Assembly: GCA_027923505.1 (NCBI GenBank)
Contig: BROI01000008.1
Coordinates: 1-64,000, forward strand
Direction: 5' to 3'
Length of the DNA: 64,000 nucleotides
Source: Mayamaea pseudoterrestris
Lineage: Eukaryota; Bacillariophyta; Bacillariophyceae; Sellaphorales; Sellaphoraceae
Both the position numbers and the translations under genes were made by a program. Below the pieces are notes generated by a model that made no database searches, had not been told where the DNA came from, and saw only the letters and a program-made list of their open reading frames with translations. The stretch's first letter is position 1; each line of letters starts with the position of its first letter. Of the stretch, positions 5,043 to 50,183 are shown piece after piece.

Positions 5043-5507
5043 GTTTTATTTAGTGTTACAGATGAGCAAGGGAGAGTCGTTGCGCCGATGCCTGCGACAA
5101 ATCGGAGACGCTTTCGTCATGGTGGAGAGAAGATTGCGATGGGCGAAGGTCATCGTGACGGTCATTGTGCGACTTGAAGTTCTACGGCACTATAGGATTG
5201 AAAGTTGATGATATCTTCAACATTCGTAGAATTGACAAGCTTCTTATTATGCCTTCTCCGATGCAAGCTGCGGGCAACGAACAGAAATTTGTTTGGGAAG
5301 GGCTGGTGGAACGCCGTTTCGTCCACGTCAAAATCGGTCTCATCTCCAAACAATCGAGGTGCGCTACCCGAGTGCGATACGGACAACCTCTGAATTGGAT
5401 CCGCTTCTTGTCCAAAGTTCCTTCATCGCCTGCTCGCCTCGCGGCAGAACTCGCTCGAAACTCGTGCCGACGAGTTGCATCAGCAGGTTCTGCGTACGTA
5501 ACCAGGC
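5043..5507. other. Intergenic, upstream of the Duc1-family gene
   Basis: Left half of the roughly 1.05-kb divergent region between the Duc1-family gene and the formate-THF ligase gene. It should contain the promoter of the minus-strand gene. Short overlapping frames on both strands have no family resemblance. I see no clear TATA box or other defined site. Confidence 0.4.
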
Positions 5508-5712
5508 AATAGTACGAAACAAGTGCCAGTGCTAACAACGTCATGAGGCAATACTGTGAAACGAGTGCCAGTGATAACTACGTCACGAGGCAATAATGTA
5601 AAACAAGTGCCAGTGATAACTACGTCACAAGGCAATACTGTAAAACGAGTGCCAGTGAAAACTACGTCATAAGGCAATACTATAAAACGAGTGCCAGTGA
5701 AAAGTACATCAC
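5508..5712. repeat. 42-bp minisatellite, locus A (5 units)
   Basis: Five units repeat every 42 bp, each built on AAACGAGTGCCAGTG, a variable tetranucleotide, then CTACGTCA or a variant, and a GGCAATA tail. The same unit recurs at 37739-38110, 49812-50183 and 63869-64000, so it is a dispersed minisatellite. On the minus strand each unit offers a TGACGT-type core, the half-site of many bZIP factors. Because 42 is a multiple of three, a repetitive minus-strand reading frame arises, but it looks incidental. This locus lies between two divergently transcribed genes. Confidence 0.9.
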
Positions 5713-6099: not shown

Positions 6100-8381
6100 A
6101 TGACGTCGGAGAAGATGAATGCCCTTGGATATGCACTGCTGCAACCCCAGACGCCAGTACCTTCCGACATTGACGTGAGTCAATCCATTGTTAAGGAAGT
6201 TGGACTATTGTCAATGGAAGATTTAGCAAAGCAGTAAGTGTGACGGTTTGATGTGTTGTGATGGCGTCGTTTGATGATCTGCGAACGTTTCAAAACTCAC
6301 AACGACATTGCCCCTTATGTTTCGAAAGAATCGGTTTAGAAGCGAACGAAATCATTCCATGGGGAACCGCCAAGGCCAAGATTCCTTTATCTGTCTTGTC
6401 CAAGCGTCAAGACAATCCAAGTGGTAATTATGTCGTCGTGACTGGTATTTCTCCGACCCCGTTGGGCGAAGGCAAGTCGACGACGACGATTGGATTGGCG
6501 CAGGCGCTTGGGGCTGTCTTAGGAAGAACCACGGTCGCATGCATTCGACAGCCATCCCAGGGACCAACCTTTGGCATCAAGGGAGGCGCGGCTGGGGGAG
6601 GATATAGTCAAGTGGTGCCCATGGAGGAGTTTAATCTACACTTGACTGGCGACATTCATGCCGTCACGGCTGCCAATAACTTGCTGGCGGCGGCGATTGA
6701 ATCGCGCATGTTTCATGAGTGCGGACAGTCGGACGAGTTGCTGTTCAAGCGACTCTGCCCCAAGAATGAATTTTCACCAGTCATGAAGCGGCGACTACTC
6801 AAGCTTGGCATTATTCACAGCTTGGACGATGACAAGACACCATCCGAGTTGACTTTGGAGGAGCGCGGTCGATTCGCTCGCCTTGACGTTGATCCATCCA
6901 GTGTCACGTGGCAACGCGTCTTGGATACTTGCGATCGACACTTAAGGGTCGTGGATGTTGGAGTTGGCCCGCAGGAGACGGTCAAGAGTAAGGACGATCC
7001 CACCCAGCGCGTGCAACACTCGCGACGAACTGGCTTTGACATTACAGTGGCATCCGAAGTCATGGCGGCACTGGCGCTCGCCAAGGATTTGCCGGATTTG
7101 CGAGAAAAGCTAGGAAGCGTTGTGATTGGATACTCGCGGGCGACGAAGGAGCCCATTACTGCCGACGATCTAGGAGTGGGTGGTGCCATGACGGTGCTCA
7201 TGAAGGATGCAATCATGCCAACATTGATGCAGACGGTGGAGCGGACTCCGGTTCTTGTGCATGCTGGACCCTTTGTAAGTATTACCAGGATGCATGTGTT
7301 GCCTGGATATTTGTATCGCATTGACAGTGTCTAGACACCTCAAGATCCCTCGCTCATCGCCTCATTGTGTATTATTGAACTAACTTTTTGCAGGCGAACA
7401 TTGCCATTGGCAACTCCTCCATAATCGCTGACGTGATTGCGCTCAAGACTGTCGGGCCGGACGGCTTTTGCGTCACGGAAGCAGGCTTTGGAGCTGACAT
7501 TGGAATGGAGTGAGTATTGTGGCAAAGCATGACTCATTAATTGATTCAAAATATGTCCGTAATCTTTGCTCACTAAGCATCTCTATTTTTGTTTCAGAAA
7601 ATTCTTCAACATCAAGTGCCGCGCCTCTGGTTTGAAACCAAAGTGCGCCGTGATTGTGGCGACTGTGCGAGCTTTGAAGATGCATGGCGGCGGACCACTG
7701 GTGGCAGCCGGCAAGCCACTAGCCCGCGAATATCGCGAAGAAAATGTCGACTTGGCTACTGCTGGCACCTGCAATTTGGTGCGCCACATTGAGAATGCCA
7801 AGAGGTTTGGAGTGAATGTTGTCGTAGCTGTGAACCAGTTCCAATCGGACACAATGGCAGAGATTGACGCTGTCAAGGCGGCGGCACTGGGAGCTGGTGC
7901 GTTTGACGCCGTTGTGTCAAATCACTGGGCGGAGGGTGGGGCGGGCGCCAAGAAACTCGCCGAGGCGGTGGTCAAGGCCTGCGAAGCGAATGATGCCGAC
8001 AATTTCCGATTTCTTTATGACACTGCAAGTCTGACGATTCAAGAGAAGATTGAATGCATCTGCAAGGAAATCTATCGAGCAGACGGAGTCGACTACTCGG
8101 AGGTGTCCTTGCAGCAGATCAAGCAGTACGATGACGCTGGCTTTGGCCATTTGCCAATTTGCATTGCCAAGACGCAGTATTCCTTTAGCTGTGATGCATC
8201 CGCCAAGGGCGCACCGACGGGATTTCGCGTGCCGGTCCGGGAGGTTCGACTCTGTGCAGGCGCCGGTTTCTTGTATCCACTTTGCGGCGAAATAATGACG
8301 GTTCCAGGTCTTTCAACGCGACCAGGCTTTTACGATGTGGATATCAATTTGGATACGGGTGACGTGATTGGACTGTTTTAA
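6100..8381 (+). CDS. FTHFS: Formate-tetrahydrofolate ligase (10-formyl-THF synthetase), four exons
   Basis: The enzyme makes 10-formyl-tetrahydrofolate from formate, THF and ATP, feeding purine and formyl-Met synthesis. Exons are 6100-6233, 6329-7274, 7394-7509 and 7598-8381. All three introns are GTAAGT/GTGAGT...AG, and joining them gives 659 residues, close to plant monofunctional enzymes. The N-terminal block [10 protein letters not shown] is typical. The ATP loop TPLGEGKST lies at residues 88-96, followed by the glycine-rich signature [12 protein letters not shown] and the second signature [13 protein letters not shown]. Splicing restores [14 protein letters not shown] and GADIGME-KFFNIK across introns 2 and 3. 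ATG 6100 is the first in-frame ATG; a second at 6115 is also possible. I see no clear targeting peptide, so a cytosolic location is likely. There is no fused dehydrogenase/cyclohydrolase domain. Confidence 0.96.
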
Positions 8382-8559
8382 ATCTTGCGCGGTGTAAAGT
8401 TACATCAAGCTATAATTGTTGTAGGCTAACACATTCGCTGGGCGGGGAGGTGGTAGGATCAATGGTTTTGCAAAGCCTACAACGATTTTTCGCGCTCCGC
8501 GCGCACAAACACTGCCAAACGTAAAGAAATAGATTCAATAGCTAACACGGTCATTGTGT
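8382..8559. other. 3' flank of the ligase gene, left edge of the satellite locus
   Basis: Short spacer holding the presumed 3' UTR of the folate gene. From about 8539 it begins to resemble, in inverted orientation, the DNA just beyond the right arm at 18593-18614 (ATAGCT and scattered further matches, roughly 14 of 22). This hints that the inverted repeats around the satellite are somewhat longer than the best-conserved 45 bp. Confidence 0.4.
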
Positions 8560-8598
8560 GGGGTCATTGCATGGGGTCATTGCATGGGGTCATTGCAT
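8560..8598. repeat. Three tandem 13-bp units GGGGTCATTGCAT
   Basis: The 13-mer GGGGTCATTGCAT occurs three times head-to-tail at 8560, 8573 and 8586. The last copy is the outer end of the left inverted-repeat arm. A single inverted copy occurs at the far side of the satellite, at 18580-18592. Confidence 0.9.
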
Positions 8599-8630
8599 GC
8601 GCCCAAAGCTTGACATCATCCGTGTCGCAG
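8586..8630. repeat. Left arm of imperfect inverted repeat bracketing the satellite
   Basis: This 45-bp segment matches the reverse complement of 18548-18592 at 35 of 45 positions without gaps. The outer 15 bases (GGGGTCATTGCATGC) are identical. It ends exactly where the 169-bp monomers begin. The arrangement is what a terminal inverted repeat of a non-autonomous element with an expanded internal satellite would look like. Confidence 0.65.
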
Positions 8631-11600
8631 TGCCACCAGTCTCAGCCCGCAGATGCCGACATTCAAACACGCCTACAGCAAGCCCTGTAGGTGTCCAAAT
8701 TACACCAGAATGGTGCCAACATCATTTTTCAGGCTGCGCTACATGATGGTAAGACTGGCTGATGTCTCAGGGGATGGCAATGTATTTGGTGACAACTTGT
8801 CACCAGTCTCAGCCCGCAGATGCCGTGACATTCAAACATCCCTAACACAAGCCCTGTAGGTGCCCAAATGACACCTGAATGGTGCCAATATCATTTTATA
8901 GGCTGCGCTACAAGATGGTAAGCTTGGATGGTGTCTCACAGGATGGCAATGTATTTGGTGACAACTTGTCACCAGTCTCAGCCCGCAGATGCCATGACAT
9001 TCGAACGCCCCTAATGCAAGCCCTGTAGGTGCCCAAATTACACCAGAATGGTGCCAACATCATTATTCAGGCTGCGCTACAAGATGGGAAGATTGGCTGG
9101 TGTCTCAGGGGATGGCAATGTATTTGGTGACAACTTGTCACCAGTCTCAGCCTGCAGATGCTGTGACATTCAAACACTCCTAACGCAAGCCCTGTAGGTG
9201 CCCAAATTACACCAGAATGGTGCCAACATCATTATTCAGTCTGAGTTACAAGATGATATTGCCTGGCTGGTGTCTCAGGGGATGGCAATGTATTTGGTGA
9301 CATCTTGTCACCAGTCTCAGCCCGCAGATGCCGTGACATTCAAACGCCCCGACAGCAAGCCCTGCAGGTGCCCAAATTACACTTGAATGGTGCCAACATC
9401 ACTATTCAGGCTGCGCTACAAGATACTATGCCTGGCTGGTGTCTCAGGGGATGGCAATGTATTTAGTGACAACTTGTCACCAATCCCAGCCCGCAGATGC
9501 CGTGACATTCAATCGTCCCTACAGCAGGCCCTGTAGGTGTCCAAATTACACCAGAATGGTGCCAACATCATTTGTTAGGATGCGCTACAAGATGATATGC
9601 CTGGCTGGTGTCTCACGGGATGGCAATGTATTTGGTGACAACCTGTCACCAATCTCAGCCCACAGATGTTGTGACATTCAAACGCCCCTACAGGAGGCCC
9701 TGTAGGTGCCCAAATTACACCAGAATGGTGACAACATCATTATGCAGTCTGAGCTACAAGATGATATGCCTGGCTGGTGTCTCAGGGGATGGCAATGTAT
9801 TTGGTGACAACTTGTCACCAATCTCAGCCCGCAGATGCTGTGACATCCAAACACACCTACAGCTGTAGGCCCTGTAGGTGCCCAAATTACACCAGAATGG
9901 TGCCAACATAATTTTTAATGCTACGCTACAAGATGATATGCATAGTTGGCGTCTCAGGGGATGGCAATGTATTTGGTGACAACTTGTCACCAGTCACAGC
10001 CCGCAGATGCCGTGACATTAAAACACTCCTAACGCAAGCCCTGTAGGTGCCCAAAATACACCAGAACGGTGCCAACATCATTATTCAGTCTCAGCTACAA
10101 GATGATATGCCTGGCTGGTGTCTCACGGGATGGCAATGTTTTGGTGACAACTTGTCACCAATCTCAGCCCACAGATGTTGTGACATTCAAACGCCCCTAC
10201 AGCAGGCCCTGTAGGTGCTCAAATTACACCAGAATGGTGCCAACATCATTTTTTGGGCTGCGCTACAAGATGATATGCATAGTGGGTGTCTTGAGGGATG
10301 GCAATGTATTTGGTGACAACTTGTCACCAGTCTCAGCCCGCAGATGCCGTGACATTCAAACGCTCCTAACGCAAGCCCTGTAGGTGCCCAAATTACACCA
10401 GAATGGTGCCAACATCATTATTCAGGCTGCGCTACAAGATGATATGCCTGGCTGGTGTCTCAGGGGATGGCAATGTATTTGGTGACAACTTGTCACCAAT
10501 CTCAGCCCGCAGATGTCGTGACATTCAAACACACCTACAGCAGGCCCTGTAGGTGCCCAAATTACACCAGAATGGTGCCAACATCATTATTCAGGCTGCG
10601 CTATAAGATGATATGCCTGGCTGGTGTCTCAGGGGATGGCAATGTATTTAGTGACAACTTGTCACCAATCCCAGCCCGCAGATGCCGTGACATTCAATCG
10701 TCCCTACAGCAGGCCCTGTAGGTGCCCAAATTACACCAGAATGGTGCCAACATCATTTGTTAGGATGCGCTACAAGATGATATGCATGGCTGGTGTCTCA
10801 GGGGATGGCAATGTATTTGGTGACAACTTGTCACCAATCTCAGCTCACAGATGTTGTGACATTCAAACGCCCCTACAGGAGGCCCTGTAGGTGCCCAAAT
10901 TACACCAGAATGGTGCAAACATCATTATGCAGTCTGAGCTACAAGATGATATGCCTGGCTGGTGTCTCAGGGGATGGCAATGTATTTGGTGACAACTTGT
11001 CACCAATCTCAGCCTGCAGATGCCGTGTCATCCAAACACACCTACAGCAGGCCCTGTAGGTGCCCAAATTACACCAGAATGGTGACAACATCATTATTTA
11101 GGCTGCGCTACAAGATGATATGCCTGGCCAGTGTCTCAGGGGATGGCAATGTATTTGGTGACAACTTGTCACCAGTCACAGCCAGCAGATGCCGTGACAT
11201 TAAAACGCTCCTAACGCAAGCCCTGTAGGTGCCCAAAATACACCAGAACGGTGCCAACATCATTATTCAGTCTCAGCTACAAGATGATATGCCTGGCTGG
11301 TGTCTCACGGGATGGCAATGTATTTGGTGACAACTTGTCACCAATCTCAGCCCACAGATGTTGTGACATTCAAACACACCTACAGCAGGCCCTGTAGATG
11401 CCCAAATTACACCAGAATGGTGCCAACATCATCTTTCCAGCTGCGCTACAAGATGATATGCCTGGCTGGTTTTTCAGGGGATGGCAATGTATTTGGTGAC
11501 AACTGGACACCAGTCTCAGCCCGTAGATGCCATGACATCCAAACACGCCTACAGCAGGCCCTGTAGGTGCCCAAATGACACCAGAATGGTGCCAACATCA

Positions 11601-14600
11601 TTTGTTAGGATGCGCTACAAGATGATATGCCTGGCTGGTGTCTCAGGGGATGGCAATGTATTTGGTGACAACTTGTCACCAATCTCAGCCCGCAGATGTT
11701 GTGACATTCAAACGCCCCTACAGGAGGCCCTGTAGGTGCCCAAATTACACCAGAATGGTGCCAACATCATTATGCAGTCTGAGCTACAAGATGATATGCC
11801 TGGCTGGTGTCTCAGGGGATGGCAATGTATTTGGTGACAACTTGTCACCAATCTCAGCCTGCAGATGCCGTGTCATCCAAACACACCTACAGCAGGCCCT
11901 GTAGGTGCCCAAATTACACCAGAATGGTGACAACATCATTATTCAGGCTGCGCTACAAGATGATATGCCTGGCCAGTGTCTCAGGGGATGGCAATGTATT
12001 TGGTGACAACTTGTCACCAGTCACAGCCAGCAGATGCCGTGACATTAAAACGCTCCTAACGCAAGCCCTGTAGGTGCCCAAAATACACCAGAACGGTGCC
12101 AACATCATTATTCAGTCTCAGCTACAAGATGATATGCCTGGCTGGTGTCTCACAGGATGGCAATGTATTTGGTGACAACTTGTCACCAATCTCAGCCCAC
12201 AGATGTTGTGACATTCAAACACACCTACAGCAGGCCCTGTAGATGCCCAAATTACACCAGAATGGTGCCAACATCATTTTTCCAGCTGCGCTACAAGATG
12301 ATATGCCTGGCTGGTTTTTCAGGGGATGGCAATGTATTTGGTGACAACTTGTCACCAGTCTCAGCCCGCAGATGACGTGACATCCAAACACGCCTACAGC
12401 AGGCCCTGTAGGTGCCCAAATTACACTTGAATGGTGCCAACATTATTTTTCAGGCTGAGCTACAAGATGATATGCCTGGCTGGTGTCTCAGGGGATGGCA
12501 ATGTATTTGGTGACAACTTGTCACCAGTCTCAGCCTGCAGATGCCGTGACATTCAAACGCCCCTACAGCAGGCCCTGTAGGTGCTCAAATTACACCAGAA
12601 TGCTGCCAACATCATTTTTCAGGCTGCGCTACAAGATGATATGCATAGTTGGCATTTTGAGGGATGGCAATGTATTTGGTGACAACTTGTCACCAGTCTC
12701 AGCCTGCAGATGCCGTGACATTTAAACGCTCCTAACGCAAGCCCTGTAGGTGCCCAAATTACACCAGAATGGTGCCAACATCATTATTCAGTCTGAGCTA
12801 CAAGGTGATATGCCTGGCTGGTGTCTCAGGGGATGGCAATGTATTTGGTGACAACTTGTCACCAGTCTCAGCCTGCAGATGCCATGACATTCAAACACGC
12901 CTACAGCAGGCCCTGTAGGTGCCCAAATGACACCTGAATGGTGCCAACATCATTATTCAGGCTGCGCTACTAGATGGTGGGCTTGGCTGGTGTCTCAGGG
13001 GATGGCAATGTATTTGGTGACAACTTGTCACCAATCTCAGCCCGCAGATGCCGTGACATTCAAACGCCCCTACAGCAGGCCCTGTAGGTGCCCAAATTAC
13101 ACCAGAATGGTGCCAACATCATTTTTTAATGCTACGCTACAAGATGATATGCATAGTTGGCGTCTTGAGGGATGGCTATGTTTTGGTGACAACTTGTCAC
13201 CAATCTCAGCCCGCAGATGCCGTGACATTCAAACACACCTACAGCAGGCCCTGTAGGTGCCCAAATTACACCAGAATGGTGCCAACATCATTTTTAATGC
13301 TACGCTACAAGATGATATGCATAGTTGGCGTCTTGAGGGATGGCAATGTTTTGGTGACAACTTGTCACCAATCTCAGCCCGCAGATGCCGTGACATTCAA
13401 ACACACCTACAGCAGGCCCTGTAGGTGCCCAAATTACACCAGAATGGTGTTACCATCATAATGCAGTCTGAGCTACAAGATGATATGCCTGGCTGGTTTC
13501 TCAGGATGGCAATGTATTTGGTGACAACTTGTCACCAATCTCAGCCCGCAGATGCCATGACATTCAAACGCCCCTACAGCAGGCCCTGTAGGTGCTCAAA
13601 TTACACCAGAATGGTGCCAACATCATTTTTTAGGCTGCGCTACAAGATGATATGCCTGGCTGGTGTCTCAGGGGATGGCAATGTATTTGGTGACAACTTG
13701 TCACCAATCTCAGCCCGCAGATGCTGTGACATCCAAACACACCTACAGCTGTAGGCCCTGTAGGTGCCCAAATTACACCAGAATGGTGCCAACATAATTT
13801 TTAATGCTACGCTACAAGATGATATGCATAGTTGGCGTCTTGAGGGATGGCAATGTTTTGGTGACAACTTGTCACCAATCTCAGCCCGCAGATGCCGTGA
13901 CATTCAAACACACCTACAGCAGGCCCTGTAGGTGCCCAAATTACACCAGAATGGTGTTACCATCATAATGCAGTCTGAGCTACAAGATGATATGCCTGGC
14001 TGGTTTCTCAGGATGGCAATGTATTTGGTGACAACTTGTCACCAATCTCAGCCCGCAGATGCCATGACATTCAAACGCCCCTACAGCAGGCCCTGTAGGT
14101 GCCCAAATTACACCAGAATGGTGCCAACATAATTTGTTAGGCTGCGCTACAAGATGATATGCCTGGCTGGTGTCTCAGGGGATGGCAATGTATTTGGTGA
14201 CAACTTGTCACCAATCTCAGCCCGCAGATGCCATGACATCCAAACACACCTACAGCAGGCCCTGGAGGTGCCCAAAATACACCAGATGCCAGAAACGCTG
14301 CTGGTGCCAACATCACTTGTCACCAATCTCCCAGTGTGCGCTACAAGACGCTGAGCTACAAGATGATATGCCCGGCTGGTGTCTCAGGGGATGGCAATGT
14401 ATTTATTGACAACTTGTCACCAATCTCAGCCCACAGATGCTGTGACATTCAAGCGCCCCTACAGGAGGCCCTGTAGGTTCTCAAATTACACCAGAATGGT
14501 GCCAACATAATTTTTTAGGCTGCGCTACAAGATGATATGCCTGGCTGGTGTCTCAGGGGATGGCAATGTATTCGGTGACAACTTGTCACCAATCTCAGCC

Positions 14601-17600
14601 TGCAGATACCGTGTCATCCAAACACACCTACAGCAGGCCCTGTAGGTGCCCAAATTACACCAGAATGGTGCCAACATCATTATTCAGTCTGAGCTACAAG
14701 ATGATATGCCTGGCTGGTGTCTCAGGGGATGGCAATGTATTTGGTGACAACTTGTCACCAATCTCAGCCCACAGATGCCATGACATTCAAACGCCCCTAC
14801 AGCAGGCCCTGTAGGTGCCCAAATTACACCAGAATGGTGCCAACATCATTTTTCAGGCTGCGCTACAAGATGATATGCCTGGCTGGTGTCTCAGGGGATG
14901 GCAATGTATTTGGTGACAACTTGTCACCAATCTCATCCCGCAGATGCCGTGACATCCAAACACACCTACAGCAGGTCCTGTAGGTGCCCGAATTACACCA
15001 GAATGGTGACAACATCATTCTTCCATCTGCGCTACAAGATGATATGCCTGGCTGGTGTCTCAGGGGATGGCAATGTATTTAGTGACAACTTGTCACCAAT
15101 CTCAGCCCGCAGATGCCGTGACATTCAAACGCCCCTCCAGCAGGCCCTGTAGGTGCCCAAATTACACCAGAATGGTGCCAACAATTTTTTTAGGCTGCGC
15201 TACAAGATGATATGCCTGGCTGGTGTCTCAGGGGATGGCAATGTATTTGGTGACAACTTGTCACCAATCTCAGCCCGCAGATGCCGTGACATCCAAACAC
15301 ACCTACAGCAGGCCCTGTAGGTGCCCAAATTACACCAGAATGGTGCCAACATCATTATTCAGTATGCGTTAAAAGACGATATGCCTGGCTGGTGTCTCAG
15401 GGGATGGCAATGTATTTGGTGACAACTTGTCACCAATCTCAGCCCGCAGATGCCGTGACATTCAAACACACCTACAGCAGGCCCTGTAGGTGCCCAAATT
15501 ACACCAGAATGGTGCCAACATCATTATTCAGGCTGCGCTACAAGATGATATGCCTGGCTGGTGTCTCAGGGGATGGCAATGTATTTGGTGACAACTTGTC
15601 ACCAATCTCAGCCCACAGATGTTGTGACATTCAAACACACCTACAGCAGGCCCTGTAGGTGCCCAAATTACACCAGAATGGTGCCAACATCATTTTTAAA
15701 GCTGCGCTACAAGATGATATGCATAGTTGGCGTCTTGAGGAATGGCAATGTATTTGGTGACAATATCGTGATTCAAGCCCCTCAGGGGCACTTGCCTCAA
15801 CCAGTCTGCGCTACAGCCTGGCAGGGGATGGCAATGTATTTGGTGACAACTTGTCACCAATCTCAGCCAGCCGATGCCGTGACATTCAAACGCCCTACAG
15901 CAGGCCCTGTAGGTGCCCCAATTACACTAGAATGGTGCCAACATCATTATCCAGTCTGAGCTACAAGATGATATGCCTGGCTGGTGTCTCAGGGGATGGC
16001 AATGTATTTGGTGACAACTTGTCACCAATCTCAGCCAGCCGATGCCATGACATTCAAACGCCCCTCCAGCAGGCCCTGTAGGTGCCCAAATTACACCAGA
16101 ATGGTGCCAACAATTTTTTTAGGCTGCGCTACAAGATGATATGCCTGGCTGGTGTCTCAGGGGATGGCAATGTATTTGGTGACAACTTGTCACCAATCTC
16201 ATCCCGCAGATGCCGTGACATCCAAACACACCTACAGCAGGTCCTGTAGGTGCCCGAATTACACCAGAATGGTGACAACATTATTCTTCCAGCTGTGCTA
16301 CAAGATGATATGCCTGGCTAGTGTCGCAGGGGATGGCAATGTATTTGGTGACAACTTGTCACCAATCTCAGCCCGCAGATGCCGTGACATTCAAACACAC
16401 CTACAGCAGGCCCTGTAGGTGCCCAAATTACACCAGAATGGTGCCAACATCATTTTTAAAGCTGCGCTACAAGATGATATGCATAGTTGGCGTCTTGAGG
16501 GATGGCAATGTATTTGGTGACAACTTGTCACCAATCTCAGCCCGCAGATGCCGTGACATTCAAATGCCCCTACAGCAGGCCCTGTAGGTGCCCAAATTAC
16601 ACCAGAATGGTGCCAACATCATTATTCAGGCTGCGCTACAAGATGATATGCCTGGCTGGTGTCTCAGGGGATGGCAATGTATTTGGTGACAACTTGTCAC
16701 CAGTCTCAGCCCGCTGATGCCATGACATCCAAACACGCCTACAGCAGGCCCTGTAGGTGCCCAAATTACACCAGAATGGTGCCAACATCATTATTCAGGC
16801 TGCGCTACAAGATGATATGCCTGGCTGGTGTCTCAGGGGATGGCAATGTATTTGGTGACAACTTGTCACCAGTCTCAGCCCGCTGATGCCATGACATCCA
16901 AACACGCCTACAGCAGGCCCTGTAGGTGCCCAAATTACACCAGAATGGTGCCAACATCATTATTCAGGCTGCGCTACAAGATGATATGCCTGGATGGTGT
17001 CTCAGGGGATGGCAATGTATTTGGTGACAACTTGTCACCAGTCTCAGCCCGCAGATGCCGTGACATCCAAACACAGCAGGCCCTGTAGGTGCCCAAATTA
17101 CACCAGAATGGAGCCAACATCATTATTCAGGCTGCGCTACAAGATGATATGCCTGGCTGGTGTCTCAGGGGATGGCAATGTATTTGGTGACAACTTGTCA
17201 CCAATCTCAGCCCGCAGATGCCGTGACATTCAAACGCCCCTACAGCAGGCCCTGTAGGTGCCCAAATTACACCAGAATGGTGCCAACATCATTATTCAGG
17301 CTGCGCTACAAGATGATATGCCTGGCTGGTGTCTCAGGGGATGGCAATGTATTTGGTGACAACTTGTCACCAGTCTCAGCCCGCAGATGCCGTGACATCC
17401 AAACACACCTACAGCAGGCCCTGTAGGTGCCCAAATTACACCAGAATGGTGCCAACATCATTATTCAGGCTGCGCTACAAGATGATATGCCTGGCTAGTG
17501 TCTCAGGGTTGGCAATGTATTTGGTGACAACTTGTCACCAATCTCAGCCCGCAGATGTCGTGACATTCAAACGCCCCTACAGCAGGCCCTGTAGGTGCTC

Positions 17601-18257
17601 AAATTACACCAGAATGGTGCCAACATCATTTTTTAGGCTGCGCTACAAGATGATATGCCTGGCTGGTGTCTCAGGGGATGGCAATGTATTTGGTGACAAG
17701 CTTTTCACCAATCTCAGCCCGCAGATGCCGTGACATTCAAACACACCTACAGCAGGCCCTGTAGGTGCCCAAATTACACCAGACTGGTGCCAACATCTTT
17801 TTTTAGGCTGCGCTACAAGATGATATGCCTGGCTGGTGTCTCAGGGGATGGCAATGTATTTGGTGACAACTTGTCACCAATCTCGGCCAGCAGATGCCGT
17901 GACATTCAAACACACCTACAGCAGGCCCTGTAGGTGCCCAAAATACACCAGAACGGTGCCAACATCATTATTCAGTCTCAGCTACAAGATGATATGCCTG
18001 GCTGGTGTCTCACGGGATGGCAATGTATTTGGTGACAACTTGTCACCAATCTCAGCCCACAGATGCCGTGTCATCCAAACACACCTACAGCAGGCCCTGT
18101 AGGTGCCCAAATTACACCAGAATGGTGCCAACATCATTTTTAAAGCTGCGCTACAAGATGATATGCATAGTTGGCATCTTGAGGGATGGCAATGTATTGG
18201 TGACAACTTGTCACCAGTCTCAGCCCGCAGATGCCGTGACATTCAAACGCTCCTACT
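8631..18257. repeat. 169-bp palindrome-bearing satellite array, about 57 monomers
   Basis: About 9.6 kb of head-to-tail monomers, period 169 bp. Typical landmarks in order are CAGATGCCGTGACATTCAAA, CCTACAGCAGGCCCTGTAGG, CCAAATTACACCAGAATGG, CTGCGCTACAAGATGATATG, CAGGGGATGGCAATGTAT, then the dyad TTGGTGACAA-C-TTGTCACCAA. There are thus two dyad symmetries per unit: 10-bp arms with a 1-nt centre (perfect at 9801-9821), and CCTACAG/CTGTAGG arms 6 nt apart. Subfamilies differ at TACAGCAGGC versus TAACGCAAGC and at CTGGCTGGTGTCTCAGGGG versus CATAGTTGGCGTCTTGAGGG. The many 70-130-residue frames recur because 169 is not a multiple of three, so they are frame artefacts rather than genes. Unit length is near a nucleosome repeat, as in many centromeric satellites. 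Confidence 0.95.
9801..9821. other. Representative perfect dyad of the satellite monomer
   Basis: TTGGTGACAA at 9801-9810, one C, then TTGTCACCAA at 9812-9821. The arms are exact reverse complements. The same dyad, perfect or with the outer pair changed (CACCAG instead of CACCAA), recurs in nearly every monomer. It could extrude as a hairpin or bind a dimeric protein recognising TGACA/TGTCA half-sites; neither is shown. Confidence 0.85.
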
Positions 18258-18281
18258 GCATACGTGTTGTGTGTCCTCATG

Positions 18282-18501
18282 CATAGCCAGATCAGAATTT
18301 ATGGAACAAGACTATTGGGGGTAGTCTTTGAAGGCCACACACTGTAGCACCATGGAGCTGGTTACTGTGTGGAATTATGCCCTCCTAAACAACTGATGCT
18401 ACATGTGAGCTGGGAGTGACTGTTTCGCATCAATCTCACCGCATACATGACCCCAAGTATAGCCAGAACAGAATTCATGGAACAGGACTATCGGGGGTAG
18501 T
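18282..18501. repeat. Pair of 44-bp direct repeats in the right flank
   Basis: 18282-18325 and 18458-18501 share 39 of 44 positions (core AGCCAG..CAGAATT.ATGGAACA). They lie inside the right inverted-repeat arm, between it and the last monomer. They are not part of the 169-bp unit and have no counterpart that I found on the left side. Confidence 0.8.
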
Positions 18502-18547
18502 AGGATATATCCGGACATGTCTTGTGACATTACTTGGAATACTGCAG

Positions 18548-18592
18548 CTGTGACGTAGATTATGTCATGGTTGTGGTGCATGCAATGACCCC
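18548..18592. repeat. Right arm of imperfect inverted repeat bracketing the satellite
   Basis: Reverse complement of the left arm 8586-8630 at 35 of 45 positions, with the outer 15 bases identical. It lies about 290 bp beyond the last recognisable monomer, so the right side carries extra non-satellite DNA that the left side lacks. Confidence 0.65.
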
Positions 18593-19357
18593 TAAGGATA
18601 AACATGTAAGCTATCCCAAACACATTACTTTACTTTAGGAGTATGCTCTCAGAGAGCCATCAATTACCACTCAATTGCTGCAATCTCTAGCCTCTCCTTC
18701 TGTTTCATATAGACTAAAATTGTTGGCATCAACCCATTATATGGTTTCTTTGAAGGCCAGTGTTGTTCTTTGTGTGTCTACTGTTTGACAGTCTTTTGTG
18801 TGCGCAGAGCGCATAAAAGTCCATTCAGGCTTTGTGAAACCATTGATCCTGCCATCTCCCCACCCCGCGAATGTGTTTATTTGGTAGTCGACTGTATCAT
18901 GCAAAATACAGATGTAGCAGTTAGTTGGCATAGCTAGCCAGGCAAAAGGAGAGATTCTTGTCGTGTGATAGATTCTATCGCATCGGAACCCAATTTCTCC
19001 GCTGACGCCACGCTCTACTCTTTCGTCCACAGTGCCAAAAGGTCCGACGTAACGCGAGTCTTCCGGCCGATCCATCAATCGAAGCGAGCGTCGTCCTTCT
19101 CTGGGCACGAGCCCATGGTCGACTTGCTGTTATTCCTACTATAGAAATTAATTACGTGAATCGAATTGCTGGTGCTGAGTCGAGAAGCTTGAGAGTAGAG
19201 TTGATTGAGCGAGGCGGAACTATCTCCAATCGTCTTCCACCTTTGAAGATCAGTCGACTCGAGACTCGAGGGTCAGTCATTCTGCTGCGACTTCGAATAC
19301 AGCAATTTACGATAACAAATTCGAGGCTCTACATACTCTCATTACTATTTGAATAGC

Positions 19358-22300
19358 ATGGGATGCTCTCAGTCGAAACTTCTATCGACCGAATCGAGTC
19401 AGATTCCACTTGGAGCGGCTCGAGCAAAACCACGAGGCACCACGAGCAGCGCTGCTCCCATGACTCGCGATCGCATTGATTCTTGGGCTGTCAGTAATGG
19501 AGATGTTGCAGCAGGAGGATCAGGGGGATCGCCCCAGTCAAGTCCAATTCAGCAATTAGCAGTTACGCCGTCGGCGCCGCCAGTGCTTGCAAAGAAATCC
19601 TTTCCTCCTTCAGCTGCAGCTGCGCCGTCGGCATCTCCTCGAAAGCAGCAGCAGCAACTTCCGTTACCACAATCGCAGGCAACTGCTACAGTCATGCCAA
19701 CAGTTGAATCACAATGGAAGTTTCTGTGGGAGACGCATTCGCCTCATTTGCTTGATCCAGCCGATGTTCATTCCGTCTTGGATGCCCTGCAGTGTCGAAC
19801 CATCAACAAACTTTCCGTCGTTGACTTGACGCTACTGCAGCGACGCGTGCGCATGATTGTCAGAAACTTGACTAATACTGCCAAGCCAACGAGAGCCGTT
19901 ACATCTGTATTTGCAAATACGACAAAGACGGAAACGGAGAGTCTTTCCGTCGTGGAGAAGCATCACTTGCTTACCGAATCATTGATTGCAAAGATTCTTC
20001 CAACGAGTTTCATTACGCATAATGCTTACCAACTAATGCTGCACATGTCGGAATCACTATGGGACCGAGTCGCAAACGTGGCAGTGCTGACGGCAACCAA
20101 GGCCAAGCTCGAAATGGACGTTAACGTGAGAGCGCCCAAGCTACGCATGCCCAAGCCAAGCGTGGTGCCAGAAGTTTCGCCTCTCGCGGATCTTCCACCT
20201 GGAGTGACGCTGCAAAGTTTAACGTTCATGGTCGCCATGGCCCAGCATGGAACGCGGCAGCAAAAATTACTCTTGTTGTTTTACCTGCTGGTCGACAAGC
20301 TTGGGGAATTTCTCGACTCGCATCCAGCTGGCGGCGTTCCTACATGGTTGCTGGAAGCTGATCATGAAACTGTCATTAGTTTGGCATCGCTCACGCACTA
20401 CCACTACTACGGGCATGGAAATTACTTGCCCGTGTCGAATCTGCAAGCGCCGCCATTTTGTGCGAGCAGTTCGAGGCAGCCATTGACGATACAAAAGAGC
20501 AAGTTACGGGAATTGATACAATCTACAATATTGCCGCAGCCCTCGTCTTCGTCGTCGGTCACAGTTGTAGCAGCCGGGGTCCCGGTAGTGGATGGGCATG
20601 CCGAAATAGAAGTAAACGGCGGCTCAAGTGTATCTCCGTCTCGACGAAACTCAAAAACGTCGCAGGGAAGGGCGATGAGACGAAGCTCGGATAGTAGCAC
20701 GGTTCATGCGGAAGCTGTCGAGCCACCATCGGAACCTCAACTCTATCCCAATTCATTGCTTATGAAGCGATTGGCGGCTGTACGAGAGTTAAATGCGAAC
20801 GGAAGTTGTATTCCTGGTGCTGAAACCCTGGATGAGCATGTTTCAATTACGTCAGCCATGCTCGACAAACTCGTTCCGCCAGCTGCTGTGGCAACCAGTG
20901 ACGCATTGGAGCAACAATATGACGACAATAACCAGTCGCCGCAGCAACGAAAGCGAAGCAGCAGCAAGTTAAGCGTGCCACCAGCAAATTGCATGACGCT
21001 CCAGCAGTTTGCCACGTGGGCGGAAGAAGCGCTGGACAATGCCACACTGGCAAAACTCATGCATCAATTATTTACGACTGGCATTCTGCCAACGGCTGCA
21101 CTAGAGAAAGATATGGTGCAGGAGCAATGGCACGAATGGCAAATATGGTTTGACTACATGACGAAGCAGGACAATGTCGACAATAATAACGCGCTGGACG
21201 TTTTGACGCGAAACGTTACGGCATCACTACAAAACTCGGACTCCAGCGCTGCGTTCGGTAATGATGGAGATAAGAAGATAATTGCTCTTTTTCAAGCGCC
21301 CTGGGGAGGTATTGGAGGACTTGACGGTGGTGGTGCTTTGGGATACGGTGTAATGTACTGTATTGACAAGCACTGGTGGGACGAGTGGACCAGTTACGTT
21401 GGCTGGAGCATACTTGGGGAACGACCAAGTCACGCCTCCGGAGGGAACCGACCTGGAACTCTTTTGACGGAGCGATTGCTTTTGAACCAAGATCCATTTA
21501 TTCCTCGTGGGTCGTTGGGATCGTATGAGCACATGAGATATGGGCTACAACTGAATATCGACTACGTTGTGGTGCCGTCATGTGTGTGGGACGTACTGTA
21601 CGAGCTTTACGGCGGCGGACCACCACTGCCTCGGATTGTCAAGGCGGTAACTAACAATACGGCGGAAACTACAACGACAAGCAGCTACACAGCTGATTCT
21701 AACAACAAAGGAACGCCACGCAGTGACGAGCTCGACTCAATTATCCACGGGCTTGATTCGTCTGGCGGACGGCGAGTCACGCGATTGCCTGACACATTGA
21801 CCGTCGCAGTGCATCCTTGGATCATCCACGTGTATCTTTGTGATCCATCGCAACCATACCGGCGTGGAGTTATCGGGCTGAACTCCATTCGGGTCATGAC
21901 ACTTCCGAATTCATCACTTTGGCGGCTACTGGCAGAAGTTGTTGTCCGCTTTCCTCTGCATGCCTACAAAGCGTTTGGCGCTGATAATCGCGGAAAGGGT
22001 CGGCTGTGGAGGAAATGCGAACAGAAGGACGTCCCTGCGACACGATACGGGCCATGGAACCTTGTGTCAAAGGGCCGGCATGCGAGTATACCTTTTTCGT
22101 TGGATTTACGAGAACAGTCAGAGCAGTTTTCGGAATTAGTGTCCAACTGGAAGGAATATGCCGAAGAAGCTACGGTAGAGAGTGCTGGCTTTGTTGATGG
22201 TGACCATGTCATGTTCGAATTTGCGGTATTTCGGAACGCAGAGCTTGTATGGCCGAGAGAAGCGGCGGCCAAGGCTGGAAAAGCCCGACGTCTAGCGGAA

Positions 22301-34752: not shown

Positions 34753-35116
34753 GTGCCAAACCTTTGATTCTCAACGGCTGTCAATGATACACTCCGATCC
34801 AGTGTGCCAAAAACTTTGATTTTCAACGGCTGTTAATGCTACTCTCCGAGCTAGTGTGCCAAAAACTTTGATTTTCAACGGCTATCAACGCGATCACTCC
34901 GGAGCACAGTGCCAAAAACTTTGATTTTCAACGGATGTCAATGGAACACTCTGAACCAGTGTGCCAAAAACTTTGATTTTCAACGGCTAACAACAGTACA
35001 CTCTGGATCACAGGGCCAAAAACTGTGATTTTCAACGGCTGACAATTGTACACTCTGGAGTACAGTGTTAAAAACATTGTTTTCAACGGCTGTCAATGCT
35101 ACACTCCGAGCCAGTG
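34753..35116. repeat. 52-bp minisatellite (7 units)
   Basis: Units start at 34753, 34804, 34856, 34909, 34961, 35013 and 35065, so spacing is 51-53 bp. The core is GTGCCAAAAACTTTGATTTT followed by CAACGGCTGTCAATG and CACTCCG. The last three units are repeated at the start of the second segmental copy (47034, 47086, 47138). The first base shared by both 12-kb copies is one base before the fifth unit. Confidence 0.92.
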
Positions 35117-35347
35117 TTGTTCAATGTTCAAAGAGTACGGTAGTCAGAACTGTATTGCGACGCCCCCACAATGGCCGACCAAGAGACCTTCTCGACGATC
35201 TTGTTCACATTATAGCAATAATGGACGACACATCATCTTCTGCATGTCGTATATAGCAGCTGTGCTGCAAGCGGTGGCTTTGAATTGGGCCTCGTAGCTA
35301 CTAGTCTTTACTCGTAGTGAATTCTTCCATCGCCTCGGCTCCGTTCC
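35117..35347. other. Upstream region of the N6-MTase gene, copy 1
   Basis: Short spacer between the minisatellite and ATG 35348. The methyltransferase start is uncertain and an upstream exon could lie here. Identical in copy 2 (47190-47420). Confidence 0.35.
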
Positions 35348-36613
35348 ATGATCCGCCAAGCAACAAAGGTGGACGATTATAGCGGCAAAAATGCGGAAAG
35401 AACGTTTCATCAACAACGACATGATATCAATACGTATCCATGCATTGTCGCTTGTGGGTACCGTCACGTCTTGATTCGTAAAACGCGTCGAACCTTTCCG
35501 GCATGGTTGATTGCCTTTGACGACTCGCAACGAAATATCGCCTGGCGAACCAAGCACGACTTTTTGATCCTACAGCGATCCATCAAGTCGACAAGCATTC
35601 AATTATCAAAGACAAGTCTCAGCAAGCTTGCGGATGCAGCCCCGTGGGTGGCGCCATCAATGGAAGTTACGGCAGCAGTCTTCGTCGACGCAGTCGACGG
35701 CGAAGCAGCAATCATCAACAACTGGGAACGAAAGATGCAAAAGAATTTGCTGCAGATCAATCAGTTCATGCAAAAATGCTGCGCGAGTAAAGTAGAACCA
35801 GTTTCATCTGCTTGGAAAATCTTTGCTCGACCTGGTAATTCCGAGCATGTCATGGATCCGCGCTCTTGCAGTATAATAAACACTTGCAACGAACAAGACG
35901 AACAACAAAGCCATGAGCTGGGCCAGTACTTTTGCAGCTCCGAGAATGCTTCATTCCTGATTGACAAGTGTTTCGAACAGATTCGTAGCCGGTTTGGTGC
36001 GGGTGACGACAGCGTCAGCAACAAGCCCGACATTGTTTTCGTTGAGCCAAGTGTGGGGCGAGGTGATATCGTTGCGGCGTTGTGCAGCAGGCTACAACAA
36101 GATGGTCATTCAATTAGCAATCAAACGATACAGATCCTTGGCTTTGACTTGGACGCATCGGCTGTGGATCATTGCCGACAGCAGGAGTTTGCGGGCACAA
36201 CGAACGGCAAGCTCGCGTTTGCCACTGCCGATTTTTTGCAGACGCACCGCCGGGACCATGTTTCCAGCGATAATGCCATTGTCGTCTTTGTCGGGAATCC
36301 ACCCTTTGTCGCACACGGCGAGATTAATGGCATGCCGCAATCACAACAGCAGCCAGAGAGAAACATTTGCTTACGGTTCATCCAGCACGCGCTGCTGGAA
36401 TGGAACGCGCAGTTGGTCGCATTCATCATGCCACAACGATTCCGTTGCTGTGACTATTCCGCAGTCTCATTGATGTCAAGCATGACGCTCCAATGGGAAA
36501 CGTTGGAACTCCCGTCGAAACGCTTCTTCTTCCAGGGCAATGTTGCCGTGCAGCAGCCAGCCATTTTGCAATGCTTTTGGTCGGAGAATAAGGCTCTCAA
36601 ACGCCATGCATGA
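35348..36613 (+). CDS. N6-adenine-type class I methyltransferase, copy 1
   Basis: 421 residues. The C-terminal half has the ordered motifs of S-adenosylmethionine-dependent N6-adenine methyltransferases. These are a GQYF block (LGQYFCSSENASFLID, residues 191-206) like motif X, motif I FVEPSVGRGDI (231-241), motif II LGFDLDASAV (264-273), and the catalytic NPPF (317-320) in VFVGNPPFVAHGEI. The same set occurs in bacterial adenine DNA methyltransferases and in some RNA and protein-glutamine enzymes, so the substrate (DNA, RNA or protein) is open. The motif X-like block argues mildly for DNA. The N-terminal 150 residues are not recognised and the start ATG is only the first in frame. No intron is needed. 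It ends about 1.1 kb before a 42-bp array. Confidence 0.72.
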   Translation: MIRQATKVDDYSGKNAERTFHQQRHDINTYPCIVACGYRHVLIRKTRRTFPAWLIAFDDSQRNIAWRTKHDFLILQRSIKSTSIQLSKTSLSKLADAAPWVAPSMEVTAAVFVDAVDGEAAIINNWERKMQKNLLQINQFMQKCCASKVEPVSSAWKIFARPGNSEHVMDPRSCSIINTCNEQDEQQSHELGQYFCSSENASFLIDKCFEQIRSRFGAGDDSVSNKPDIVFVEPSVGRGDIVAALCSRLQQDGHSISNQTIQILGFDLDASAVDHCRQQEFAGTTNGKLAFATADFLQTHRRDHVSSDNAIVVFVGNPPFVAHGEINGMPQSQQQPERNICLRFIQHALLEWNAQLVAFIMPQRFRCCDYSAVSLMSSMTLQWETLELPSKRFFFQGNVAVQQPAILQCFWSENKALKRHA

Positions 36614-37738
36614 TGACAAAGTGTATAGCTGTCAATCCTAGGATAAACTGGAATGTTTGACGCAATAATTCACGGCGTTGTTGAAATAGAATGGAACAAG
36701 CTGATTCTTCTTTACAACAGTGATCACTAACGCGCGACAAGTAGAATACCAGTAATAAAAGGAAAGCATTACACTTGAAAGCAAAGACTTGCTAATTCTC
36801 TTTAAGTGACGCGAAACAAACCCCTGCACGAATTGTGACGAAAGAACAATTGCAAATGCATTCCGCCGAGCCGATACGTGCAAGCGACAAGCACGCCAAC
36901 ACTTGCCGCACATCCCAAAGTGCACAGCGCCTGAACAGTATTGTTTTAATGTGAGTCTTCAGGAAAGCAAGCGAACTTTGGAAGCACTGTGGACTTTCGA
37001 GTTTCTTGACATCTTCCGCCAGTGACGTCGAGGTGTGCGGCTTGGGAAGTCAATGGAAGCAGCAGCAGCCATGCACCATCCATACCGACATCAAAAAAGC
37101 GAAATCTAGTGTATCGCAGCTGATCGAACCGCGATCCTGTAACTCGCCCTCCATCTCGCAACGGACACACCGACAGATGCTTTGTTGGTATCGAGTGATT
37201 GAGTGCGCAGTCACGCGCAGCGGGGTGTCAGAGTGACGCTATTTCAGCGCACCTGCACAAGCTGTGACGAAGGAGCATATTGTTGTCAATACAGCCATTG
37301 CCGTCATAGAAACAGTACCGGTATGAAGTATATATCAAATAGTTCGCATATTGCATGCCATCAATATTATTTGTCGGCAGGCTTGGGCACCACTTTCATT
37401 CATACCGGTAAGTCAACCGGCAATTGGGCCATAGAGCTCTCTCTATATCAGCCAATTTACTGCAGCAAAGCGTCTTGTCGAGATCGTCATATTTTAATGA
37501 TGAATTGGCCTTTCGTTAGTCAATGGCGGTGACGAAGACGACTCGAATGATTGTCACGAGCCACCGCCGCCAAATGCTTCGCGCTGGGACAGCTCATGCC
37601 TTGTATACTTTATCGTTAGCGTTGTTAGCGTCATTAACGTGCAATAAAATCTTTGACAGAGTCACCATCCATTAGTAAACAACAGCAGGAGTCGGAGACA
37701 GCATGGACGAATGCCGACGGCTTGAACACGCAGTGAAG
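36614..37738. other. Spacer between the N6-MTase gene and the 42-bp array, copy 1
   Basis: About 1.1 kb with only short, motif-free frames on both strands. Perhaps the 3' UTR of the methyltransferase and neutral spacer. No RNA gene seen. Confidence 0.4.
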
Positions 37739-38110
37739 AAACGAGTGTCAGTGAAAACTGCGTCATGAGGCAATACTACGAAACGAGTGCCAGTGTCAAA
37801 TACGTCATTAGGCAATAGTGCGAAACAAATGCCAGTGAAAACTACGTCATCAGGCAATAGTGTGAAACGAGTGCCAGTGAAAACTGCGTCACATTGTATT
37901 GGTGCGAAACGAGTGCCAGTGATAACAGCGTCACAAGGCAATAATACGAAACGAGTGCCAGTGAAAACTGCGTCATAAGGCAATAATGCGAAACGAGTGC
38001 CAGTGTCAATTACGTCATTAAGGCAATAGTGCGAAACGAGTGCCAATGTCAATTACGTCATCAAGGCAATATTGCGAAACGAGTGCCAGTGTCAATTACG
38101 TCACTACCGG
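37739..38110. repeat. 42-bp minisatellite, locus B (9 units)
   Basis: Nine units with starts of the GTGCCAGTG core at about 37745, 37786, 37828, 37870, 37912, 37954, 37996, 38039 and 38082; two intervals are 43 bp. Each carries CTGCGTCA, TTACGTCA or a close variant. A repetitive 14-residue-periodic minus-strand frame (TGTRF..LP) runs through it but breaks at the 43-bp units. Confidence 0.92.
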
Positions 38111-39002
38111 TCATCACCACGCGATTCACCGCATTTGCGACCTTTCGGCCACTGAAAATGGCCATCGCTCTCTCTCATCCTTGACTTTTGGATTGAATAA
38201 GCAGCTGTCCTGCATTCAGTATGATAAGATGGGTCAATTGATCTTAATTACTGGCGCAACACATGGAAACAGTCGTGGCCTTCGGTATAAAGGCTCGGCG
38301 ATATTGACGCTTGCTCGATGCTCGATGCTCAATGACCGATCAAGCAGTTGAAATGCCGTAGTTGACGGGTTTGAAGTGAAACTGCCAATAAGAGTTTCGC
38401 GTGTGTATTTGGTGCCTTTCAGTAATCATTTGCGTCAGTGGCGTCAGCTGAAAAGCTTTACGTGCTCTACGTTGGACGCTGGGACGCGTCTATTATGGAC
38501 CGAAGCCACACTGCATTCACGTGGAGCTCTTGAAATGCTTTTTTGATGAATCATGCTCGGCACAAGAGAAAGAAACTGGTGTGTAAGACTCGTTCATGAT
38601 TGAAATATGGAGCAATTCGAGCGTGGCATCAACGTTTCCGCCAATCAGCCGCCGTCAATACTTCATGCGTCGTCGCTCAATCTATTCGATATCTTCATGT
38701 AAAACATTTACGCAAGCTCCAAAACGAGAGTTGCAACGATTGGGATACAGTTATTTATCTGTATGTTATCAAGCTCTCAATGACACTGTTGTCCATCATG
38801 GCGTGAACTTCCGCATTTGGAAGCAACCTTGGTTGAGCGACTTCAATAACTTTCTATACACAATCACCCGTAGTCAAGCATACGTTTCTAATGCTAATAT
38901 TAATACTTTCATTCGATTTCGTTAACATGTCCTAGGCAAATAAACCGCTATGACCATGCGCAGCGCATAGAGTTGACGACAAAACGGTTCAGGTTCACGT
39001 CA
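38111..39002. other. Spacer between the 42-bp array and the Deg protease gene, copy 1
   Basis: No gene recognised; a 109-codon plus-strand frame at 38596-38925 has no motif. It contains the three internal substitutions that distinguish the two 12-kb copies (38345, 38401, 38404). It is the convergent 3' side of the Deg gene. Confidence 0.45.
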
Positions 39003-40418: not shown

Positions 40419-40678
40419 GTTGCCACACTGAAATGTTCATTTACTGCTACCGTCCGAACGTGCCTGCATCTCTCGCGCATGAGAGGACGGGAGCTGACTC
40501 GTTCACCATGGCGAATGGCGACGAAAGAATTCACTGCCAAAACCGATGCGCTGGTGAAAATAAGAATGGTATCTTATAATCACACCGGTTATGGATGGGT
40601 TGAGCATGGCCTCATTTTTCTTGTCGACGATGCGCCAATGTCAAGCAATTAGATAGATTGAATCAAGCAGTCTGGGCA
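40419..40678. promoter_or_regulatory. Shared upstream region of the Deg and AAAP genes, copy 1
   Basis: The two genes start head to head 260 bp apart, so their promoters must share this space. I see no clear TATA box. Repeated exactly at 52492-52751. Confidence 0.4.
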
Positions 40679-42718: not shown

Positions 42719-42785
42719 TGTTGCGACAATGTCAATACAATAGTCTTGCTATCATCCAAAATAGTTATCAAACCTTGTAAAAGTT

Positions 42786-44450: not shown

Positions 44451-44578
44451 GAGAGGCGTTATTAGTGTTGGACGGAGGAAGCAGCGTCATGGTCATTATT
44501 TTCAAAGTCATCACCTTTTGAAAAGTCGCTGCGGGACCGAATGGCGCGTCGCAGCGGTGAAGAACTCGAGCAGCGACG
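44451..44578. promoter_or_regulatory. Compact divergent promoter between the GT60-like and Ctr genes, copy 1
   Basis: Only 128 bp separate the two ATGs, so a shared bidirectional promoter is likely. No clear core elements recognised. Duplicated exactly at 56524-56651. Confidence 0.4.
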
Positions 44579-45462: not shown

Positions 45463-45556
45463 CGCTCGCTTGCAACGACGGAGAAATGTTTATGCATATG
45501 GGTGTAATCTCTATTATAATGATACATGTTAGTATTCTAATGTCTTTGATGATTGT

Positions 45557-46903: not shown

Positions 46904-47420
46904 GAGAATGACTTATGCTGTCTATTGCATTCAATACCCAATTGATCGATGATCATGAATGAGACATAATAAGAGATTCAAGGTATGCAGTACCTGCTAT
47001 AAGGTGCAAATGACTGCGATTGCAGCTGCTGATGTGCCAAAAACTTTGATTTTCAACGGCTAACAACAGTACACTCTGGATCACAGGGCCAAAAACTGTG
47101 ATTTTCAACGGCTGACAATTGTACACTCTGGAGTACAGTGTTAAAAACATTGTTTTCAACGGCTGTCAATGCTACACTCCGAGCCAGTGTTGTTCAATGT
47201 TCAAAGAGTACGGTAGTCAGAACTGTATTGCGACGCCCCCACAATGGCCGACCAAGAGACCTTCTCGACGATCTTGTTCACATTATAGCAATAATGGACG
47301 ACACATCATCTTCTGCATGTCGTATATAGCAGCTGTGCTGCAAGCGGTGGCTTTGAATTGGGCCTCGTAGCTACTAGTCTTTACTCGTAGTGAATTCTTC
47401 CATCGCCTCGGCTCCGTTCC

Positions 47421-49811: not shown

Positions 49812-50183
49812 AAACGAGTGTCAGTGAAAACTGCGTCATGAGGCAATACTACGAAACGAGTGCCAGTGTCAAATACGTCATTAGGCAATAGTGCGAAACA
49901 AATGCCAGTGAAAACTACGTCATCAGGCAATAGTGTGAAACGAGTGCCAGTGAAAACTGCGTCACATTGTATTGGTGCGAAACGAGTGCCAGTGATAACA
50001 GCGTCACAAGGCAATAATACGAAACGAGTGCCAGTGAAAACTGCGTCATAAGGCAATAATGCGAAACGAGTGCCAGTGTCAATTACGTCATTAAGGCAAT
50101 AGTGCGAAACGAGTGCCAATGTCAATTACGTCATCAAGGCAATATTGCGAAACGAGTGCCAGTGTCAATTACGTCACTACCGG
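49812..50183. repeat. 42-bp minisatellite, locus C (9 units)
   Basis: Duplicate of locus B, with the same nine units and the same two 43-bp intervals. A fast-evolving minisatellite with unchanged copy number is further evidence that the duplication is very young, or an assembly artefact. Confidence 0.92.

Follow-up and report, generated by a model that had tools for sequence, protein, structure and literature searches.

A 169-bp tandem repeat in the window, the first 64 kb of contig C8 (BROI01000008.1) of the diatom Mayamaea pseudoterrestris, belongs to a satellite family that is dispersed in about a hundred or more blocks over the genome (assembly of 30.6 Mb in 41 contigs) and is not the mark of one centromere. 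In the window, whose genes are eukaryotic in appearance, the array is enclosed by a pair of 3' ends in inverted orientation that belong to a non-autonomous family of rolling-circle transposons, a feature that is new relative to an earlier reading of this DNA made from the sequence alone. With a probability of roughly one half, we posit a Helitron-linked dispersed satellite whose palindrome is held by a dimeric protein: rolling-circle transposition would have scattered repeat seeds over the genome, unequal exchange would then have grown these seeds into arrays, and a sequence-specific dimeric DNA-binding protein would hold the palindrome, at about one site per nucleosome repeat.

Structurally, the repeat is a satellite in the ordinary sense, with long head-to-tail arrays of one monomer present in many copies. 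Tandem Repeats Finder (TRF) places the window array at 8634-18260 with a period of 169, in three rows (8634-14286, 14350-15763 and 15822-18260) separated by spacers of 63 and 58 bp, and the 9.6-kb array of about 57 monomers described by the sequence-only reading is confirmed (9,627 bp / 169 = 57). The monomers lie on the plus strand throughout; 54 of them align over at least 150 of the 169 columns, with a mean pairwise identity of 91.6%. Higher-order repeats were considered and rejected, identity being flat over lags 1-12 (0.911-0.925) and a 338-bp TRF row unsupported.

Within arrays, the part of the monomer that varies least is the first of two inverted repeats singled out by the sequence-only reading, hereafter dyad 1. 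Its window consensus is TTGGTGACAA-C-TTGTCACCAA (31 exact 21-mers and 47 exact 20-mers in the window), and its conserved 19-bp core is TGGTGACAA-C-TTGTCACCA. The 10+1+10 form claimed for it holds for the window consensus, but the outermost pair is nearly peculiar to the window array, since column 39 is A in 2 and G in 26 of 28 sample consensuses, so that the dyad is mostly 9+1+9 in other arrays. These samples are 28 array pieces with 394 monomers, fetched by similarity to the monomer, to the element end described below or to R175, a 175-bp tandem repeat; each of three pairs of pieces (on C17, on C8 near 1.0 Mb and on C6 near 0.92 Mb) probably comes from a single array. Among the 25 pieces with six or more monomers, polymorphism within arrays was 1.1% over the 19 palindrome columns versus 4.2% over all columns, which ranks first among 169 placements. 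Copies with all 19 columns intact made up 84% for dyad 1 versus a median of 46%, a value exceeded by that of the same stretch shifted by one column and by no other. Dyad 1 is thus steadier than most of its surroundings, as had been proposed, which fits a dimeric protein site. The CENP-B box of alphoid satellites is likewise a short conserved protein site inside a faster-changing monomer; it is not known to be a perfect palindrome of the dyad 1 kind, and the site here is a putative one.

The second conserved dyad of the sequence-only reading, CCTACAG/CTGTAGG, did not hold up. In the window its right arm is conserved (majority frequency 0.992) and its left arm variable (0.886); all nine pairs form in 53 of the 380 scorable monomers, and at least eight in 250. 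The left-arm variant weakens the fold from -8.2 to -3.5 kcal/mol, and the right arm is altered in three divergent samples.

Functionally, dyad 1 might also persist without any bound protein, in a selfish satellite whose mode of amplification (repair templated by the hairpin, extrusion or a favoured start of replication), and not a host function, keeps the palindrome; we regard this as possible, and tentative. The hairpin is perfect (-8.4 kcal/mol, z -5.2), and one symmetric variant (C-to-G with G-to-C), picked for counting after it had been noticed, occurs at 58 places genome-wide versus 24 for its one-sided forms together, as palindrome-templated correction could give. Array edges also lie inside the dyad in six of 33 rows on an informal look (L023, L031, L066, L069, L072 and L073), some of the 33 being breaks inside divergent blocks; among these six, L072 has an edge monomer with the symmetric GAGAA-TTCTC form of the dyad, and L023, L069 and L073 have damaged versions of it. 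At the same pair, however, C-to-T changes number 101 one-sided and 2 symmetric copies genome-wide, so correction is not general and the 58 symmetric copies may descend from one old variant that spread, which is their simplest reading. Across the 394 monomers, pair changes in dyad 1 comprise 68 that are one-sided, three double changes with pairing lost and four with pairing kept, and these four are that single C-to-G/G-to-C variant, from two C8 samples. Compensatory change, for which the sequence-only reading had proposed a check, is thus not supported in general. Conservation moreover covers the sequence and not symmetry alone, and a sequence-specific site would fit better than a hairpin under compensation.

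A near-identical second copy of the left flank offers a view of how the array changes. The piece L032 (C6:1159k) matches window positions 6900-10139 and holds a second copy of the formate-tetrahydrofolate ligase (FTHFS) gene, of the left transposon module and of the array start; it is either a duplicated locus or a haplotype left unmerged. Over gene and flank, 10 of 1,528 columns differ (0.65% divergence, 99.35% identity), and over the transposon module 5 of 162, with 41 more in gaps. For the array, the count of differing columns is 163 of 1,353 outside the dyad versus 4 of 152 inside it (Fisher p 1e-4). The best partners of the eight L032 monomers are scattered over the window array (identity 0.899-0.976), so that the array interior seems to have been turned over while the flank hardly changed. 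This one copy suggests that the array interior may turn over much faster than its flank while the palindrome stays; array turnover beside so similar a flank is also what a selfish satellite would show.

Regarding the bounds of the array, the left and right 3'-terminal modules (see table) are inverted copies of each other at 81% identity (E 1e-13). Genome-wide, this element 3' end is found 76 times at three or fewer mismatches, 36 of them exact, and the opposite end, ...GGATATATCCTACCACAA, 70 times at two or fewer. Among the 3' end copies listed, 39 of 41 begin at one base (AACAC or a near form), and their flanks differ, tandem copies and some duplicates excepted. The 21 solo copies that have both ends and lie in unrelated flanks are 212-480 bp long; in element orientation the base outside them is T at the 5' end in 21/21 and at the 3' end in 13/21, and a direct duplication of more than 2 bp at the insertion is absent from all of them, 2 bp being shared in five. 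An asymmetric inverted repeat, GTGGTAGGAT, adjoins the 5' end and lies 22 nt inside the 3' end, near which there is a 7-bp GC hairpin; in reverse reading the element is T^TGTGGTAGGAT...ATCCTACCAC-(22 nt)^. The flanking module thus has the features expected of a Helentron or HINE, namely sharp ends, a T-rich or TT target without target-site duplication, asymmetric sub-terminal inverted repeats and a 3' palindrome. Two other assignments were rejected: a canonical Helitron (5'-TC...CTRR-3', A^T target) is ruled out by the ends TGTGGTAGGAT...GAATGTGTT, and a terminal inverted repeat (TIR) transposon, a miniature inverted-repeat transposable element (MITE) or a foldback element was dropped in view of the solo copies with two different ends, the asymmetric inverted repeat and the lack of a target duplication, and also because matching ends bracket a frame with Rep and PIF1.

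This frame lies in a candidate complete partner of 8.65 kb at C25:84147-92795, which has the same termini as the non-autonomous family and, like the autonomous member expected for the module, carries both Rep and a PIF1-type helicase. Its Helitron_like_N domain (Rep, HUH) is at 90197-90913 (E 8.6e-11) and its PIF1 helicase at 87389-87973 (E 3.3e-24), on the same strand and in the same 2,373-codon frame; the family 5' end is found at 92778-92795 with one mismatch and the 3' end at 84147 (35/35), both in an orientation that fits. The Rep fragment matches PF14214 at 9.8e-12 and contains HFH, within the motif EPQKEGRLHFH, and of 14 control genomes searched with PF14214, none gave a match. Close to the 3' end on C25, a frame of 221 aa matched no Pfam family at a threshold of E 1. 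Three further Helitron_like_N places are on C5, C12 and C8; the C5 frame also has PIF1, and among the matches listed no end of the C25 family lies near it. Directly beside the candidate complete element, at 82.3-84.1 kb of C25 (L039, L043 and L049), short non-autonomous copies stand head to tail.

Spatially, it is R175 that ties satellite and element together. It adjoins the module in longer element copies, and its clusters, the window included, lie near the listed 169-bp places more often than expected, with 10 of 32 within 5 kb (1.5 expected) and 12 of 32 within 15 kb (3.7 expected), neither count being reached in 5000 simulations (0/5000 each). For all 3' ends the figures are 8 of 58 within 5 kb (2.7 expected, 23/5000) and 11 of 58 within 15 kb (6.7 expected, 326/5000). 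This R175 proximity beyond chance argues that satellite and element are linked, while the varying junctions between them do not support a fixed central repeat. The satellite as the fixed central repeat of a HINE was accordingly set aside, given two 3' ends in the window, varying phases and module-free edges.

From a genomic perspective, the satellite is abundant and scattered. The dyad 20-mer, present in 328 of the 394 sampled monomers, has 7,420 exact genome matches (3,803 forward and 3,617 reverse; reversed control 0), so the array is no one-off, the outcome that the sequence-only reading had named as speaking against it; extrapolated from the 20-mer counts, the family comprises about 8,900 monomers and 1.5 Mb, or about 4.9% of the assembly. 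Among the matches listed there are at least 103 clusters (more than 20 kb apart) on 34 of the 41 contigs, a lower bound for the places, some of which may be single monomers and not arrays; 27 of these 34 contigs have two or more places, and up to seven occur on one contig. Arrays are about 10 kb long in the window and on C17 and C8 and reach at least 17.7 kb on C1. Identity between arrays (0.912) is close to that within them (0.928; three divergent samples set aside), which fits a recent spread through the genome.

Such a distribution could in principle reflect a repeat-based holocentromere or polycentromere, the dispersed arrays being many small centromeric units per chromosome, as with the 172-bp Tyba repeat of beaksedges. 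The 169-bp monomer, the roughly 10-kb arrays, the several places on most contigs, the conserved dyad, the Helitron link and parallels in excerpts of the published work all agree with it. The gaps between clusters, though, are no more even than random on an incomplete map (coefficient of variation (CV) 1.13 versus 0.99 on average for random placement, with 1794 of 2000 simulations giving a CV no higher than the observed one), and excerpted accounts of Luzula describe its centromere units as likewise non-uniform. We consider it unlikely that this 30-Mb genome would have a holo- or polycentromere of Helitron-spread, nucleosome-sized arrays in which a centromeric protein, or one of chromosome architecture, is bound to the 19-bp palindrome; if it were true, it would be an independent parallel to Tyba. 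Quite improbable is an ordinary centromeric or pericentromeric satellite with one domain per chromosome and scattered remnants. The monomer is of nucleosome size, some of the 103 places may be lone monomers, and contig C28 terminates within a satellite array, so that larger arrays may be absent from the assembly. Against this stand the number and spread of the places, with which one centromere per chromosome does not agree, the near equality of between-array and within-array identity, and the position of the window array in an 11-kb gap between genes, the FTHFS gene (6258-8381, two frames) on one side and a ubiquitin-hydrolase frame (from 19349) on the other. A source of structured repeat RNA, another suggestion of the sequence-only reading, has hairpin potential in its favour and is very improbable, with no Rfam match in 8300-19400 and no general compensatory change.

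Several observations weigh against the Helitron-linked satellite with a protein-held palindrome. The bound protein is a putative one, and the two C25 ends are assigned to a single element from their place and orientation. The Rep motif of this candidate element has R at the position for which excerpts of PMC4067079 give S or L in Helentrons. Between array consensuses, dyad 1 ranks 8th, a stretch from column 107 being more constant; in the three divergent pieces alone it is 11th (0.92 versus 0.83 elsewhere), and in the window alone its 21-column stretch is only 30th of 169 for low entropy, so that the strong signal depends on the other arrays. Such ranks are not probabilities, since the monomers are related and the pieces were selected by similarity. 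No mirror pattern of constraint was found between the arms of dyad 1 (Spearman 0.21, p 0.59). As for the transposon link, the window shows two 3' ends without a clear 5' end on the left. The 3' ends without R175 have no clear association with listed 169-bp places within 5 kb (5/49 versus 2.3 expected, 392/5000) and no convincing one within 15 kb (8/49 versus 5.6 expected, 941/5000). Three satellite-fetched edges (L009, L010 and L023) lack the module within the 0.5-1.2 kb of flank examined, and satellite/R175 junctions vary in phase and occur in both orientations, C18 and C3 having one junction in common.

Excerpts of the literature hold several parallels to the Helitron-linked satellite: rolling-circle elements can transport tandem repeats and raise their copy number, Helitron-tied satellites are known from oysters, flies and sedges, and Tribolium satellites have dyad symmetries. 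Among the closest is Cg_HINE of the Pacific oyster, a case of satellite DNA-like central repeats in non-autonomous Helentrons (PMC7492417, in excerpt). It is alike in its dispersed arrays beside rolling-circle ends, which have sub-terminal inverted repeats and a palindrome at the 3' end, in its insertion at TT-type sites without a duplication, in the occasional succession of two repeat types and in a short tandem repeat in the flank. Unlike in Cg_HINE, several 169-bp arrays here have no element end in the short flank examined, the junctions of the arrays with R175 or the module are of many phases and of either orientation, array length attains the C1 value given above, and the window array lies between 3' ends in inverted orientation. 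With DINE-1/HINE and Helentrons (PMC4067079, in excerpt) the module shares sub-terminal inverted repeats unequally far from the two ends, a palindrome at the 3' end, insertion at T-rich sites, a Rep/helicase partner and, in part of the copies, tandem repeats; its inverted repeat lies 22 nt from the 3' end versus 38-60 in mite families. Tyba of Rhynchospora (172 bp, domains of about 20 kb; PMC11538461 and PMC10048060, in excerpt) is alike in unit length, array size class, many dispersed arrays per chromosome and the Helitron link of some repeats, a likeness drawn without sequence comparison; spacing here is not even on the incomplete map, and a centromere role here is only hypothetical. In the literature on satellites and Helitrons of diatoms, stramenopiles and protists, holocentric stramenopiles included, no title found names the 169-bp family, and no paper came up on a diatom satellite of 169 bp.

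A compact genome of 30 Mb that holds the satellite, the transposon ends and a possibly active partner makes it possible to follow how repeats are seeded and turned over and what the conserved palindrome does. For the putative bound protein, the palindrome could serve directly as bait. If this protein were centromeric, a route from dispersed satellites to centromeres would become testable in a new lineage.

Table 1. Features of the satellite array and its flanks in the window.
Feature	Position	Strand	Basis and remarks
Left 3'-terminal module of the non-autonomous rolling-circle element	8428-8523	-	3' end AACACATTCG.. faces outwards at 8428; inverted copy of 18779-18877
Shortened internal remnant of the module	8524-8630	-	Contains a 13-bp repeat (8549-8599, about 4 copies); TRF, short inverted matches to the right module
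169-bp satellite array, about 57 monomers	8631-18257	+	Irregular stretches near 14.3 and 15.8 kb; TRF, monomer alignment, spacings
Dyad 1, example in the consensus-identical monomer 15398-15566	15416-15436	.	Core 15417-15435; least variable 19-column stretch within arrays, 25 samples
Dyad 2, example in monomer 15398-15566	15469-15492	.	9/9 pairs in 53/380 scorable monomers; not conserved as a dyad
R175, the 175-bp tandem repeat, about 1.4 copies	18263-18501	+	Longer arrays elsewhere
Internal module of the rolling-circle element	18501-18778	+	
Right 3'-terminal module	18779-18877	+	Element 3' end at 18877

Elsewhere in the window, 34960-47033 and 47033-59108 form a 12.07-kb tandem duplication that is 99.9% identical, and so either very recent or an assembly effect; it includes genes for a trypsin-like protease, an amino-acid transporter and a GlcNAc-transferase, among others. 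A 52-bp tandem repeat (GTGCCAAAAACTTTGATTTTCAACGGCTG...) at 34753-35117 and 47036-47179 lies at two borders of this duplication and is possibly the site of unequal exchange. A 42-bp tandem repeat (GAAACGAGTGCCAGTG...) was found by TRF at 5495-5712, 37738-38103, 49811-50176 and 63875-63998; the places are 80-90% alike, and two of the four are copies within the 12-kb duplication.

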